Positions 25,193-30,338 of a stretch of DNA of 64,000 nt are shown here, piece by piece (position 1 is the stretch's first letter; each line of letters opens with the position of its first letter). This stretch comes from Actinokineospora xionganensis (GTDB taxonomy: Bacteria > Actinomycetota > Actinomycetes > Mycobacteriales > Pseudonocardiaceae), in contig NZ_JABVED010000006.1 in the NCBI RefSeq assembly GCF_014323725.1, positions 248,001 through 312,000 of the forward strand. The letters run 5' to 3'. Both the position numbers and the translations under genes were made by a program. The notes beneath the pieces are model-generated. The model saw nothing but the letters and a program-made list of their open reading frames with translations. It was not told where the DNA came from and searched no databases.

Positions 25193-25762
25193 ATGACCGA
25201 GCGGACCGCGTTGATCGTGGTGGACGTGCAGAACGACTTCTGTGAGGGCGGGTCGCTGCCGGTCGCGGGTGGCGCGGCGGTGGCGGCGGCGATCAGCGCC
25301 CACATGGCGTCGGCGGGATACGACCACATCGTCGCCACCCGGGACTACCACATCGACCCGGGCGCGCACTTCAGCGAGAACCCGGACTTCGTCGACACCT
25401 GGCCCGCGCACTGCGTGGCGGGCACGGCGGGCGCGTCGTTCCACCCGGAACTCGACGTCACCGCGGTCGAGGCGGTGTTCTCCAAGGGCGCCCACGCCGC
25501 GGCGTACTCCGGGTTCGAAGGTGTCGGGCCCGAGGGCCGCTCACTGACGCAGTGGCTGCGGGACAAGGGCGTCTCGAAGGTCGACGTCGTCGGCATCGCG
25601 ACCGACCACTGCGTGCGGGCCACCGCGGTCGACGCGGCGCGCGACGGCTTCGACACCACCGTCCTGCTCGACCTCACCGCCGCCGTCTCCCCCGACACCG
25701 CCGAGACCGCGCTCGCGACCCTGCGCGCCGCGGACGTCCAACTGGTCGGCACCCTGCGCTGA
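25193..25762 (+). CDS. pncA: Nicotinamidase (isochorismatase-like hydrolase)
   Basis: It deamidates nicotinamide to nicotinate. The 189-residue protein carries the Asp-Lys-Cys triad (Asp11 in VVDVQNDF, Lys98 in VFSKG, Cys140 in ATDHCVRAT) and a metal-binding region around DYHIDPGAHFS. It is in operon with pncB. Its last 222 bp are also read on the other strand by the 3' extension of the epimerase gene. Confidence 0.93.
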   Translation: MTERTALIVVDVQNDFCEGGSLPVAGGAAVAAAISAHMASAGYDHIVATRDYHIDPGAHFSENPDFVDTWPAHCVAGTAGASFHPELDVTAVEAVFSKGAHAAAYSGFEGVGPEGRSLTQWLRDKGVSKVDVVGIATDHCVRATAVDAARDGFDTTVLLDLTAAVSPDTAETALATLRAADVQLVGTLR

Positions 25763-26878
25763 GCCGGGCAGCAGCAGCCGCTCCAGCGCTTCGAGGACCC
25801 GGCCAGCGGCCTTGCCGTCACCGAAGGGGTTGCGGTCGGCCGGGACACGCAGATTCGTGCCGAGGATCCGGTCCGCGCCCGAGAGCAGCATCTCGCGGTC
25901 GGTGCCGACGAGCCACGCGCAGCCCGCGCGGACGGCCTCGCGCCGCTCGGTCACCTCGCGGGCGACCAGGACGGGGACGCCGAAGCTCGGCGCCTCCTCC
26001 TGGATGCCGCCGGAATCGGTGACGACCAGGGCGGCCAGGCGCAGGGCCCGGACCAGGTCGGGGTAGTCGAGTGGACCCGTGACCGACACCCGCTCGACGC
26101 CGTCGAGCGCGGCCCGAACCTGGGCGCCCACGGCCGGATTCGGGTGCGTGGGCAGCAGGACGCGGATGTCGGGGTGGCGCTCGACCATCGTGCGGACGGC
26201 GCCGAGGACCTCGTCGAGCGGGGCGCCCCATGACTCGCGGCGGTGCACGGTGACCAGCACCAGCCTGCCACCGGAGTCGGCGAGGTCACGCTCGACGGCG
26301 GCCAGGCTCGGGTCGCCTGCCGGACGGTCCGTCGCGGCGATGTGCAGCACGGCGTCGACGACGGTGTTGCCGGTGACCACGATGTCGCGCCCGGCCACCG
26401 CCTCGGCACGCAGGGCCGCGGCGGCGTCGTCGGTCGGGGCCAGGTGCAGCGCGGCGATCCGCGCCACCATCTGCCGGTTGCCCTCCTCCGGAAAGGGCGC
26501 GGCGAGGTCGCCGGTGCGCAGGCCCGCTTCGAGGTGCACGACCGGGATTCCGCGCCAGAACGCGCAAAGCGCTCCCGCGAGGGTCGTCGTCGTGTCGCCT
26601 TGGACGATGACGGCCGCCGGGCGGCGGCGGGTGAGCAGTTCGTCGAGAGCGGGCAGCAGTTCGGCCACGAGTTCGGCCTGGGTGCCCGTTCCCCGGTTCA
26701 CTTCGAGAACTTCGGTGTGGCTGAGGCCGAAGGGTTCCAGCGCCTGCTCGACCATCCCGGCATGTTGTCCACTGTGGACGATGACCGACCGCAGCACGGG
26801 GTGGCCGTCCAGGGCGAGCGCGACCGGGGCGGCTTTCACCGCCTCGGGTCGGGTGCCGACGAGGAGCAGGACTTCCAC
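25541..26878 (-). CDS. wecB: Non-hydrolysing UDP-N-acetylglucosamine 2-epimerase, with unusual 3' extension
   Basis: Interconverts UDP-GlcNAc and UDP-ManNAc for surface polysaccharide. GTG start five bases after GGAGG. Family motifs present: VGTRPEAVKAAPV, VQGDTTTTLAGAL, HLEAGLRTGD, FPEEGNRQM, VTVHRRESWG, TDSGGIQEEAPSFGVPVL. The family normally ends near residue 370, at LEALERLLL. Here no stop occurs and the frame runs a further 73 residues antisense through pncA as a Gly/Asp-rich tail. The enzyme is probably active; the tail is probably incidental. Confidence 0.88.
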   Translation of the reverse strand: MEVLLLVGTRPEAVKAAPVALALDGHPVLRSVIVHSGQHAGMVEQALEPFGLSHTEVLEVNRGTGTQAELVAELLPALDELLTRRRPAAVIVQGDTTTTLAGALCAFWRGIPVVHLEAGLRTGDLAAPFPEEGNRQMVARIAALHLAPTDDAAAALRAEAVAGRDIVVTGNTVVDAVLHIAATDRPAGDPSLAAVERDLADSGGRLVLVTVHRRESWGAPLDEVLGAVRTMVERHPDIRVLLPTHPNPAVGAQVRAALDGVERVSVTGPLDYPDLVRALRLAALVVTDSGGIQEEAPSFGVPVLVAREVTERREAVRAGCAWLVGTDREMLLSGADRILGTNLRVPADRNPFGDGKAAGRVLEALERLLLPGSAQGADQLDVRGAQGRERGLGGVGGDGGGEVEQDGGVEAVARRVDRGGPHAVVGRDADDVDLRDALVPQPLRQ

Positions 26879-26951: not shown

Positions 26952-27119
26952 TCAGTCTTTCTTCGCCGCGACGGTTCGGCGTCGGTGCGAGTGCAGCAGC
27001 AACGCGCCGGTGATGAGCAGTGCGATGCCCAGCGCCAGCCACCAGCCGATGTCGGCGCCGGTCACCGCGAGTCCGGTGCCACCACCGATGACGGCACCTC
27101 CGCCTGGAGCTCGGTACAC
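26952..27119 (-). CDS. Tiny LAVTG-type surface-anchor peptide
   Basis: A GTG start seven bases after GGGAGG makes this 55-residue ORF credible. It consists of a Gly-rich stretch, LAVTG (17-21), a hydrophobic helix (24-43: DIGWWLALGIALLITGALLL), then HRRR and a basic tail, the complete three-part layout of a sortase or exosortase sorting signal. LAxTG is the motif of class E sortases in actinobacteria. It follows the anchored protein gene by 17 bp. A mature product of about 20 residues would be remarkably short. Confidence 0.6.
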   Translation of the reverse strand: MYRAPGGGAVIGGGTGLAVTGADIGWWLALGIALLITGALLLHSHRRRTVAAKKD

Positions 27120-27136
27120 GCTCGGACCTCCCGCCG

Positions 27137-27892
27137 TTATCCGGTGACCAGTGTGCGCCGCTTGCGGATCACGCTGAAGCCGACCGGGATCGCGACCGCG
27201 CCCAGCAGGCCCAGGCCGATCCACAGACCCGCGCCGGACGCCATCGGGATCGGCGGGGCCGCCGGTCCACAGGTGGCGCTGCTGATGATCACATCACCGG
27301 AGATGATCGGCGTGTTGGCCCTGATGTGGATCGCGTTGACGGTCAGGCTGCCGTCGCCGTTCACGATCTGCTCGTTGAGGGTGATCGACAGCACCGGCGG
27401 GGGCACCGGGCCCGGCGGGACGGCGATCACGGTGTTCGGTGGTGGGTTGGCGGGCAGGGACTGCCCGTTGAAGGTGCCGTTGACAATCGAGGTGGATCCG
27501 GTGTTGCCGCCCTGGGTGGCGTCACAGGCAGCTTCGACGAGGCCGATCGAGCCTGAGAAGCCGCCCAGACTGAGGGCGACGTTCGCGACCGAGGCCTCGC
27601 TGTGCACGCCGCCGGTGGCGTCGTCACGGATGGCCTCGCTCGTCGCCACACCCGCGGTGAGCACGTTCGGGATGCTGACGCTCGCCACTTCCGCCGTGGT
27701 CGGTCCGTCAGTGTGGGAGGGGGCCAAGGGGCCCACGTTGATCGCCGGACCGCCTACCAAGGTGAGATTCGCCGAGACGACGAAAGCTGATCCGTCACCA
27801 GGAGCGGCCGATGCGGGCAGTGCGCCTACGAGCAGCGCGGCCGCGGCCAGAAGGCCCACCACACCACCGCGACGCACCATGTGCTTGTGCAT
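27137..27892 (-). CDS. Secreted protein with C-terminal sorting-like anchor (choice-of-anchor P-like)
   Basis: The ATG at 27892 follows GGAGG by six bases. The 251-residue protein has a signal peptide (VVGLLAAAALLVGALPASA), a Gly/Ser/Thr-rich beta-type domain starting SANLTLVGGPAINVGPLAPS with two Cys (ACDATQGG, SATCGPAA), a Pro-rich linker, then IPMASG, a membrane helix (about 221-242) and RKRR. The first part resembles actinobacterial choice-of-anchor P proteins. The tail fits an exosortase-type signal, and an exosortase-like gene is divergent from it. Confidence 0.7.
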   Translation of the reverse strand: MHKHMVRRGGVVGLLAAAALLVGALPASAAPGDGSAFVVSANLTLVGGPAINVGPLAPSHTDGPTTAEVASVSIPNVLTAGVATSEAIRDDATGGVHSEASVANVALSLGGFSGSIGLVEAACDATQGGNTGSTSIVNGTFNGQSLPANPPPNTVIAVPPGPVPPPVLSITLNEQIVNGDGSLTVNAIHIRANTPIISGDVIISSATCGPAAPPIPMASGAGLWIGLGLLGAVAIPVGFSVIRKRRTLVTG

Positions 27893-27978
27893 CAAATCCT
27901 CCGATTCGTTTGGGACTCAAGCTCGTCGCCCGGGGCTAATAGCCGAACTCGGGGCAGCGACCGAGCCTGCGCCTTCGT

Positions 27979-28112
27979 ATCGGTGATAACGGCCAAATTG
28001 CGACCATCGAAACGGATCGCTACCCGATCGAGTGATATTTCAACGAATTTCGTACCCCTAGGTGGGGTCAGTCGTTGCGGCAGTGTGCACCTGGACCGGG
28101 TTATCACCCGAT
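27979..28112. promoter_or_regulatory. Motif GTTATCACC(C)GAT upstream of both divergent operons
   Basis: On the minus strand GTTATCACCGAT occupies 27990-27979, 86 nt before the anchor-protein ATG. On the plus strand GTTATCACCCGAT occupies 28100-28112, 82 nt before the exosortase-like GTG. Same relative orientation and nearly the same spacing indicate shared control by one regulator or sigma factor. A palindrome ACCCC-taggt-GGGGT (28054-28068) lies between. The 302-bp region has no gene. Confidence 0.55.
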
Positions 28113-28194
28113 TCGGCGATGAAGTTTGTTCACGAAAGCCCCGATAGTCACATGACGGGTCGGGGACTCGACGCACGAGACGGAGGAGTGCCGG

Positions 28195-28749
28195 GTGGCG
28201 TTCGCAGGGTCTCTACCGGTTACGAACACGCCAAGAACCACTGTCGGATCCCGAATCCTGATCGGTGCGCTCGGGGCTGTCGTCGTGGCGCTGATCGTGA
28301 TGAACCGCGCCTACCGGACCGGCGAAATGGCGTTGGCCAGTGGCATTCTGAGCCTGATCACGTCCTCGGGCGTCTATCTCGCGCCGCAGCGGCAGTCGCT
28401 CTATTTCGGCCTCGGAACCGATCATGCTTTCGGCCTGCAAATGAGCCCGGAATGCACGTCGGCATTCCTCGTGCTGCCGTTGCTCGTCGTCGGCGCGGTA
28501 ATGATCGCGCTCCGGCCGAGAATCGCCGGTCGCGTTCTCGGCGCGCTCGCGATCGCGACGCTCGCGGTGATCCTGGTGAACCAACTCCGGATCCTGACCC
28601 TGGTCGGCCTGATCGACTGGCTGGGCACCGACCGTGGTTACTACTGGGGCCACACCCTGCTCGGATCGATGGTGAGCATCATCGGCGGCGCGGCGGCCCT
28701 GGTGATGTTCGTCTGGCTCGCCACCCGCAAACCCAAGGCGGAACGTTGA
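28195..28749 (+). CDS. Exosortase/archaeosortase family transpeptidase-like membrane protein
   Basis: GTG start seven bases after GGAGGAG. The 184-residue protein has about five membrane helices and the exosortase catalytic pattern: Cys87 in MSPECTSAFLVLP, Arg132 in VNQLRILTLVG and His153 in YYWGHTLLGS. Exosortases cut C-terminal sorting signals and are thought to transfer the protein to a lipid or glycan. The actinobacterial type linked to choice-of-anchor P proteins (XrtP) is the closest description I know. Its stop overlaps the GT2 start (TTGA). Confidence 0.78.
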   Translation: MAFAGSLPVTNTPRTTVGSRILIGALGAVVVALIVMNRAYRTGEMALASGILSLITSSGVYLAPQRQSLYFGLGTDHAFGLQMSPECTSAFLVLPLLVVGAVMIALRPRIAGRVLGALAIATLAVILVNQLRILTLVGLIDWLGTDRGYYWGHTLLGSMVSIIGGAAALVMFVWLATRKPKAER

Positions 28750-30122
28750 ACCTCTCGCTGCTGCTGGGCCTCACCCAGGCGCTCGCGCTGACGATGAGCG
28801 TCGCGTTCGTGACCTACGTGTGCCTCATCGTGGTGCCGTACATGCGGCACAAACCGCTTCCCACGGGCGATCCCGCGCGGCTGGAATGGCACTTCTTCGT
28901 GCCCTGCCGCGACGAGGAGCCGGTCATCGCCGACACGATTGTCTACCTGCGCACCACGTTCCCGCACGCGCACGTCTGGGTCATCGACGACGACTCCGAG
29001 GACGGCACGGCGGCGGTGGTCACCTCCCTGCGCGGCCCCAGGCACGGCGGCAGCGGCGACAAACACCTGCACCTCGTGCAGCGCAGGCGGCCGCTGGCCA
29101 GGACCGGCAAGGGCGACGCGCTCAACGCCGCCTACCGGGCGCTCAAGCACTGGATGGGCAAGCACGCCGACACCGACCGGGCGATCATCGTCGTGGTCGA
29201 CGCCGACGGCAGGCCCGCGGCGAACTGCCTCGAGGTCTGCTCTGCGGGCCACCTCTTCGGCGACGGCCGGGTCGGCGCCGTGCAGGTCGACGTCCGGATG
29301 AGCAACCGGGGGATGCCACCCGCCGAGGGCGGGTTCTTCGCCAAGCGCTTCGGCTCGGCGCTGGTCCGCATGCAGGACCTGGAGTTCCGCAGCGCGATCG
29401 CCGCGATCCAGCTCTCCCGCGGCCACACCGGCACGATCTCCATGGGCGGCAACGGCCAGTTCACCCGACTGTCCGCGTTGGACAGCATCGTCGAGGGCGC
29501 CGGCCCGTGGCGCGGCGCGCTGCTGGAGGACTTCGAGCTCGGCGTGCATCTGCTCACCGTGGGCTGGCACACCGGGTTCACCGTGGACACCCACGTCGAC
29601 CAGGAGGCGCTCTACAGCATGCGCCGGTTCCTCACCCAGCGGACCCGCTGGGGCCAGGGCACCATGCAGTGCTCCCGATACGTCCGGCGCATCTGGGACT
29701 CGCGGCACCTGTCCACCCTGGGCGCCGCCGAGATGCTCTATTACCTGGCGCAGCCGTGGATGCAGCTGCTGGGCACCCTCATCTACCCGATCCCGTTCGT
29801 TCTGTTGGGCTTCCGGGCGGCCGAAGACCCGGTGGCGGTGTGGGAGTGGTTCTCCGGCGGCGCCTGGCTGCTGTTCGCCACGTACGGGTCGTTCGGGCTG
29901 ATGCCCTTCTTGATCTGGGGACCGATCTACCGCAAGAAATGCGAACCGGACAAGAGTTTCCTGCGCGGCGTGGCCTATGGGTTCGGCTACGCGCTGTACA
30001 TCTACACGTTCTACATCACGTCTTGGCGTGCGCTGATCCGGATGATCCGGGGGAACAACGGGTGGACCAAGACCCGGCGCAACACTGAGACGCACACGTC
30101 TGTGGTGGCGCTGGACCACTAG
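28746..30122 (+). CDS. Processive GT2-family membrane glycosyltransferase
   Basis: TTG start overlapping the upstream stop. The 458-residue protein has an N-terminal helix (about 12-32), a GT2 domain with VIDDDSEDG, VVDADG (Asp152/Asp154), SMGGNGQF, LLEDFELG and QRTRWGQG (QxxRW, near residue 298), then C-terminal membrane helices. This is the motif set of cellulose-, chitin- and hyaluronan-synthase-like enzymes. It probably builds and exports a polysaccharide or glycolipid. Coupling to the exosortase-like gene suggests its product may be the attachment target. Confidence 0.82.
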   Translation: MNLSLLLGLTQALALTMSVAFVTYVCLIVVPYMRHKPLPTGDPARLEWHFFVPCRDEEPVIADTIVYLRTTFPHAHVWVIDDDSEDGTAAVVTSLRGPRHGGSGDKHLHLVQRRRPLARTGKGDALNAAYRALKHWMGKHADTDRAIIVVVDADGRPAANCLEVCSAGHLFGDGRVGAVQVDVRMSNRGMPPAEGGFFAKRFGSALVRMQDLEFRSAIAAIQLSRGHTGTISMGGNGQFTRLSALDSIVEGAGPWRGALLEDFELGVHLLTVGWHTGFTVDTHVDQEALYSMRRFLTQRTRWGQGTMQCSRYVRRIWDSRHLSTLGAAEMLYYLAQPWMQLLGTLIYPIPFVLLGFRAAEDPVAVWEWFSGGAWLLFATYGSFGLMPFLIWGPIYRKKCEPDKSFLRGVAYGFGYALYIYTFYITSWRALIRMIRGNNGWTKTRRNTETHTSVVALDH

Positions 30123-30210: not shown

Positions 30211-30338
30211 GACCGGGCCGCGGCGTGACGCTGGTGGGCGGGCGTCCGGTTCCGGACAGACCGGGCCGCGGCGTGACGCTGGTGGGCGGGCGTCCGGTTC
30301 CGGACAGACCGGGCCGCGGCGTGGCGCTTGGGGGTGGC
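30211..30338. repeat. 48-bp tandem repeat, 2 exact copies plus a partial third
   Basis: Units begin at 30211, 30259 and 30307 (partial, diverging after about 17 bp). Each full unit contains the palindrome GTCCGG-tt-CCGGAC. The array fills most of the 253-bp gap upstream of dinG. I see no coding evidence in it. Confidence 0.85.

Follow-up and report, generated by a model that had tools for sequence, protein, structure and literature searches.

To what does an actinobacterial exosortase attach the protein it processes, and why should its gene lie beside those of a glycosyltransferase and of a second tailed protein? The question is raised by a locus in a 64,000-nucleotide stretch of Actinokineospora xionganensis DNA (hereafter the window; C56:248001-312000, within a genome of 6.8 Mb and 70 contigs), and a 2020 paper, in the part available, calls the attachment target of bacterial exosortases an unidentified compound (PMC7468200). 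We show that wecB, the gene of a 55-amino-acid (aa) micro-protein, coaP, xrtP and the gene of a family 2 glycosyltransferase (GT2; GT for short) form one conserved locus. We read it, with a probability of about 0.42, as a dedicated cell-surface assembly module whose chemistry we infer: the synthase and WecB would provide a glycan, a sortase would fix the micro-protein, and the exosortase XrtP would join CoaP to the assembly. The features of the locus are as follows.

28195..28749, forward strand: xrtP, exosortase P, 184 aa (NF012139; Cys87/Arg132/His153)
28746..30122, forward strand: XrtP-associated GT2 synthase (NF053846; QRTRW motif; AlphaFold model)
27137..27892, reverse strand: coaP, secreted all-beta protein with the C-terminal exosortase signal PMASGAG-helix-RKRR (NF040603, NF053845)
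26952..27119, reverse strand: 55-aa micro-protein, MYRAPGGGAVIGGGTG-LAVTG-helix-RRR, with a sortase-type signal (NF058583, NF058582)
25541..26878, reverse strand: wecB, UDP-GlcNAc 2-epimerase, the conserved fifth gene (TIGR00236)
27896..28194, no strand: divergent intergenic region between coaP and xrtP (sequence)

The first-pass annotation had described four of these frames, all confirmed here as real and correctly placed, and had missed wecB as a member of the module. Each of the four proteins exceeds a curated NCBIfam cut-off in a hidden Markov model search, so that the cassette is, by its profile matches, the named exosortase P system of NCBIfam (exosortase P, CoaP and XrtP-associated glycosyltransferase; NF012139, NF053845, NF040603, NF053846) and not itself a discovery. 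XrtP scores 262 bits against the exosortase P model (cut-off 200) and is the sole match in its genome to TIGR04178 (exosortase/archaeosortase) at E <= 0.001. Its Cys87, Arg132 and His153, which had been singled out from the window alone, are retained in 114, 117 and 116 of 119 distinct aligned relatives, respectively (a regular expression missed the His of L141 and L168, where the alignment shows no loss of it). On these conserved residues, predicted to lie in membrane helices, we assign the protein to the exosortase/archaeosortase superfamily, as the first-pass annotation had done. Against PF09721 it reaches 14.3 bits, below the cut-off of 25.7, and the exosortase G model TIGR03110 is absent among the matches listed with E up to 1.

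The genes are linked throughout the organism's own taxonomic family, of which 390 genomes from 46 genera were searched; XrtP is present in 139 of them, over the cut-off in 125, with 14 genera represented. When the match tables for XrtP, the micro-protein and CoaP were joined across these genomes, the micro-protein was found on the opposite strand within 2 kb at all 127 over-cut-off XrtP loci, with a median of 1558 bases from one match start to the other; in G384 and G570 it scores under its own cut-off. A CoaP C-terminal match is present at 126 of the 127, the miss (G450) having a run of N over the end of CoaP. Both checks proposed in the first-pass annotation, the profile search and the neighbourhood comparison, come out in its favour. 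Counted by genome, 123 exceed the cut-offs for both XrtP and the micro-protein, two for XrtP alone, three for the micro-protein alone and 262 for neither; 14 control genomes gave no match to the XrtP, micro-protein or CoaP searches. Viewed from the GT, in the best 80 of 324 named loci (here and below, counts at GT loci apply to fetched stretches of up to 15 kb), the micro-protein accompanies it at 80, wecB at 78, xrtP at 77 and CoaP at 74, in the conserved order WecB-, micro-protein-, CoaP-, XrtP+, GT+; the closest named relatives at this locus belong to Actinokineospora, with GTs 76-81% identical. At 33 of the 80 loci the stretch gave exactly the five module genes out of eight sought, with no match to pncA, NAPRT or dinG. 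Such an arrangement is far beyond chance. GT, micro-protein and wecB also stand together without xrtP or coaP at six loci (L112, L114, L115, L118, L119, L120), and GT and micro-protein without xrtP at L113 and L116. The micro-protein follows the GT at least as closely as the exosortase, since it is kept in G499, a genome with such a locus and no TIGR04178 match at E <= 0.01, and also where the active site of the exosortase has been lost.

CoaP scores 103.7 bits against NF040603 (cut-off 27) and, on its C-terminal domain, 67.3 bits against NF053845 (cut-off 35). It ends in PPIPMASGAGLW, then a helix, then RKRR, and in the signal P-x-A-S-G-x-G the P, A, S, G and G are invariant in 28 aligned CoaP sequences, that of the window included. 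A structure model is confidently all-beta (pLDDT 87.5), and no informative relative of it was found in the PDB. The first-pass annotation had suggested looking for further proteins with this signal; our search of the organism's own genome returned none over the cut-off beyond the single CoaP_CTERM match, and one such protein per genome is the usual rule (135 loci in 132 genomes).

Two further sets of CoaP-like proteins were observed. A second protein of the organism with a choice-of-anchor-P domain (L132, G000:C7:165363-166202) ends in LAQTG-helix-RRKR; to judge by its tail, it is a natural case of one ectodomain family using either anchor, exosortase or sortase. Many relatives also have, next to pncA or dinG, a second CoaP-like gene that stops immediately behind the ectodomain and has no anchor (L066, L068, L074-L076, L082-L084, L087, L090, L098-L100, L104-L111); its product is likely a secreted partner.

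The micro-protein, scanned as a 90-aa frame, scores 78 bits against NF058583 (LAXTG small protein; cut-off 65), 36 bits against NF058582 (cut-off 27) and 16.0 bits against TIGR01167 (cut-off 15.9). We set the 90-aa frame aside because GTG 27119, with GGGAGG upstream, is the better start, which with the stop at 26952 gives 55 aa. Only 16 residues, mostly Gly-rich, precede an end of LAVTG, helix and HRRR that matches the LAXTG/LPXTG sortase-signal models. Both divergent proteins thus carry motif-helix-basic tails, as had been noted from the window; the companion idea of one shared enzyme did not hold, and the two tails are, as far as their motifs can be read, addressed to different machines, that of CoaP to an exosortase and that of the micro-protein to a sortase. 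The genome has four sortase-domain matches, of which the two scanned are both class E (NF033747, 251.5 and 247.5 bits, cut-off 160); class E sortase reads LAXTG signals, according to the part of the source available (PMC5148588). One class E sortase gene lies at G000:C56:323731-324252, approximately 12 kb past the right end of the window.

Near the GT we collected 175 micro-protein frames, 119 of them distinct. Frames without L[AP]xTG were dropped, and of the start codons before the motif that have Tyr as the next residue the last was taken; the distinct set includes at least one long frame (233 aa). All allow a start with Tyr2, which is then the sole Tyr of the tail, and Met1-Tyr2 is found in 119 of 119, the starts having been chosen to give Tyr. 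With starts chosen by ribosome-binding site, M-Y is also found at most family loci, the exceptions being L074, L076, L097, the decayed L105, L107-L109 and L111, and L122, which is a large unrelated protein. Position 3 is Lys or Arg in 104 of the 119, the tail is 41% Gly, and the motif is LAxTG in 115 and LPxTG in four (other motifs were left uncounted). By pN/pS (all values uncorrected) the N-terminal tail, at 0.22, is under stronger constraint than the anchor, at 0.585.

The GT2 reaches 713 bits against NF053846 (cut-off 520), and its frame, ending at 30122, likely starts at TTG 28746, a 4-base overlap with the xrtP stop by sequence inspection, so the coupling of exosortase and overlapping GT2 that had been proposed is borne out. 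It contains a conserved QRTRW, which we take to be the QxxRW-type motif of GT2 synthases. The nearest neighbours of its AlphaFold model (pLDDT 82.5) are hyaluronan synthases (TM 0.60-0.65, at 11-15% identity), followed by cellulose and chitin synthases and an archaeal mannosyltransferase. The model points to a polymer-synthase architecture like that of these processive enzymes, with processivity putative. WecB scores 365 bits against TIGR00236 (cut-off 210) and is the only copy over the cut-off in the genome, which holds two weaker matches.

What the exosortase contributes to the locus can be approached through the loci at which it has lost its active site or is missing. An XrtP-like gene is present at 77 named loci. 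CoaP is missing at three of these (L176, L197 and L198, the same loci as L117, L093 and L089), which are also the three whose exosortase has lost the Cys of its triad. One clade has substitutions at Cys and His (TPEC to AQH or AQN, GHT to GAT), the other at Cys and Arg (PEC to PEV, LR to AH). The two genomes that hold these loci gave no CoaP_CTERM match at E <= 1e-5; in one of them, G430, another exosortase-like gene, its third, lies close to a CoaP-like protein whose tail is different (L095). The catalytic triad is thus linked to the presence of CoaP. GT, micro-protein and wecB are kept at all three loci, and the dead exosortase is 58% identical across two genera, with a pN/pS of 0.47 as against 0.38 and 0.54 in two active XrtP pairs. 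This constraint, like that of the active pairs, and the retained neighbours suggest that the exosortase fold has a second, non-catalytic role. L082 and L090 have lost catalytic residues too, but these are decayed loci. Seven family genomes (L105-L111) form a decay series in which xrtP is absent or reduced to a fragment, with no TIGR04178 match in any of the seven, and GT is missing or fragmented in six, still scoring 576 bits in L110; the survivors are wecB (7/7), an anchored-type CoaP (6/7) and the micro-protein (5/7), mostly with lower scores.

Beyond the family, a sample of 345 genomes of the class held ten with an XrtP-like match, the organism's own included and only its own over the cut-off. 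Leaving out the organism's own locus and L221, which has no module gene, eight class loci with an exosortase have a GT at 8/8, wecB at 7/8 (missing at L215) and a micro-protein with LAxTG or LPxTG at 7/8 (none found at L220; L217 counted through an LPQTG farther from the helix). A GT search of the class matched 28 other genomes, 24 of them under the model cut-off, with four candidates scored per genome; the control Lactococcus lactis also matched, under the cut-off. At 20 GT loci without an exosortase we found no micro-protein whose sortase signal adjoins the helix, as against a signal-bearing micro-protein at 7/8 loci with an exosortase (Fisher 6.8e-6, a value that overstates independence because the genomes are phylogenetically related). 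In our reading, the pairing of GT with WecB is the older one, a small membrane protein often accompanies the pair, and that protein has a sortase signal where there is an exosortase. For ten exosortase-like proteins, six from the class and four from the family, the top-scoring models are those of exosortase P, R or S, all under the cut-offs. At four exosortase-free GT loci (L225, L226, L228, L230) the upstream protein, of 108-123 aa, starts with MYANSALA(L/F)TG or MYANGALALTG, an LAxTG-like stretch near the N-terminus and far from the single helix. L224 (G249, of the same genus) is a decayed remnant whose GT lacks the QxxRW Trp, with no xrtP or micro-protein found.

From these elements we propose the following scheme. 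WecB, by what is known of its family, would supply UDP-ManNAc. The membrane GT2, built like hyaluronan and cellulose synthases, would draw on UDP-ManNAc or UDP-GlcNAc for a glycan that it makes and exports; that its product is a polymer is the side to which we lean. The micro-protein would sit in the membrane with its N-terminus out and C-terminus in and work with the GT2. A class E sortase would cut it at LAVT|G and fix it to peptidoglycan, giving the glycan a foothold in the wall; cleavage by a sortase is probable. XrtP, through Cys87, would cut CoaP at P-x-A-S-G-x-G and pass the new C-terminus to an acceptor in the assembly of glycan and micro-protein. That XrtP processes CoaP we consider highly probable. 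That CoaP is then joined to the glycan of the GT2, as the first-pass annotation had proposed, is plausible; a glycan as the acceptor is a tentative choice, which draws on the linkage to GT and WecB and on the precedent of type IX secretion (Porphyromonas, Tannerella), where a protein C-terminus is amide-bonded to an amino-sugar derivative and the sugar pathway has a predicted epimerase in one species, as given in the part of that source available (PMC7468200). That precedent is one of working principle, with another sorting enzyme and secretion system, in Gram-negative bacteria.

Several observations weigh against this scheme. Its main difficulty is topology: the active site of this GT2 class faces the cytoplasm and the N-terminal tail of the micro-protein would be external, which makes direct glycosylation of Tyr2 awkward. 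No N-terminal signal peptide was found in the micro-protein, and sortase substrates typically have a Sec signal peptide, so we say that it carries a sortase-type signal, not that it is a classical sortase substrate. When the GT profile was compared with the PDB, the top match was an archaeal mannosyltransferase (3.8e-8), followed by cellulose synthase (3.8e-7). XrtP is present elsewhere in seven of the eight genomes whose GT/micro-protein locus has no xrtP, and in G518 CoaP is on a contig other than that of its XrtP-like gene. Exosortases with an intact triad and without CoaP in the fetched stretch (L092, L094, L097, L215-L219, and L222, a family locus outside the class sample) limit the rule of triad and CoaP to the XrtP group and imply that other substrates exist or lie elsewhere. 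Finally, at the 20 exosortase-free loci wecB is near the GT in 15, and in ten a small protein with one helix and no sortase signal lies upstream of the GT; seven of these proteins begin M-Y.

This last finding implies that the micro-protein may be a mere small accessory subunit of the GT2, its sortase signal serving turnover or fixing of the site, with XrtP anchoring CoaP to a membrane lipid. PgaD/IcaD-type small proteins serve PgaC/IcaA as subunits in this manner. The lipid acceptor has its precedent in archaeosortase, in the part of the source available (PMC7157517). A plain subunit would not need the complete sortase-type signal, which is nevertheless present at 7/8 exosortase loci and at 0/20 without; we judge this alternative rather unlikely. 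More doubtful is a bridge, in which the micro-protein would itself be the exosortase acceptor: XrtP would link its free N-terminus or Tyr2 to the C-terminus of CoaP, the sortase would attach its other end to the wall, and the glycan would be a separate decoration. The perfect co-occurrence of XrtP and micro-protein at over-cut-off loci, the uniform short Gly-rich tail with its Met1-Tyr2 (as the starts were chosen) and the tracking of the exosortase by the sortase signal fit it, but the micro-protein keeps its signal where XrtP is dead and CoaP absent (L089, L093, L117) and in G499. Shared neighbourhood alone, in which the wall glycan made by wecB and GT would be unrelated, and xrtP, coaP and the micro-protein gene would be co-regulated surface genes without a covalent link between the pathways, is the least probable: wecB stays by pncA, NAPRT and dinG as the rest decays (L105-L111) and so could be a resident gene, but the gene set holds together at the 33 five-gene loci and in other families of the class too.

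A bolder version of the proposed module is that exosortase and sortase, usually regarded as separate anchoring systems, are joined in one covalent pathway in Actinobacteria: the Met-Tyr-(Lys/Arg)-Gly-rich micro-peptide would prime or hold the WecB/GT2 glycan, perhaps via Tyr2, sortase E would tie the peptide to peptidoglycan, the exosortase would hang a single cargo on the glycan, and the dead exosortase would be a structural part of the synthase at cargo-less loci. We think this unlikely as a whole.

Among described systems, exosortase G (XrtG) of the Gram-positive Lactiplantibacillus plantarum likewise combines an exosortase with GTs and one C-terminally tagged protein; it differs in having two GTs and a Firmicu-CTERM protein, with no epimerase or sortase-tagged small protein listed in the part of the source available (PMC12854382), and in the XrtG model to which XrtP showed no match, as given above. 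Since the source actinomycetes lack an outer membrane, they differ from the Gram-negative hosts of PEP-CTERM/EpsH. The PEP-CTERM/EpsH system shares with XrtP a catalytic-type residue triad, a motif-helix-basic signal and linkage to exopolysaccharide genes, as far as the available parts of the sources go (PMC1569441, PMC12188702); the XrtP system differs in that it lacks the PEP motif, usually has a single substrate in each genome and scores below the cut-off of PF09721. The LAXTG substrates of Streptomyces class E sortases have the same LAXTG-helix-basic signal, and those named in the part available are chaplin proteins (PMC5148588), whereas that of the window is a 55-aa peptide without signal peptide or ectodomain. 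Compared by name alone, the NCBIfam families mention neither wecB nor a link of exosortase P with the LAXTG small protein (NF058583), and among the open-access passages listed in our literature searches we met no mention of a conserved wecB at exosortase P loci, of a sortase-type micro-protein at actinobacterial exosortase loci generally, or of loss of the exosortase active site at cargo-less loci.

As for the remaining details of the locus, the CoaP frame spans 27137-27895 on the reverse strand with a likely start at ATG 27892, and a sigma-70-like promoter looked for in 27896..28194 gave no match. wecB lies directly downstream of the micro-protein gene on the same strand; its frame overruns the family match by approximately 220 bases (25541-25762) into the 3' end of the convergent pncA, leaving a C-terminal extension of approximately 78 aa outside the TIGR00236 model. 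Between the GT and a dinG-like helicase gene there is a 48-base tandem repeat (30211-30328; 2.5 copies, 98% match).

The locus offers a near-minimal system in soil actinomycetes: an exosortase and its cargo protein, a synthase, an enzyme of sugar-nucleotide metabolism and a peptide that could be anchored to the wall, one of each. So small a gene set makes the question of the exosortase acceptor experimentally accessible. In these bacteria sortase and exosortase anchoring may converge on a single glycan of the cell surface, and if it is true that they do so, this would be a new way to build a wall-bound layer of protein and polysaccharide.

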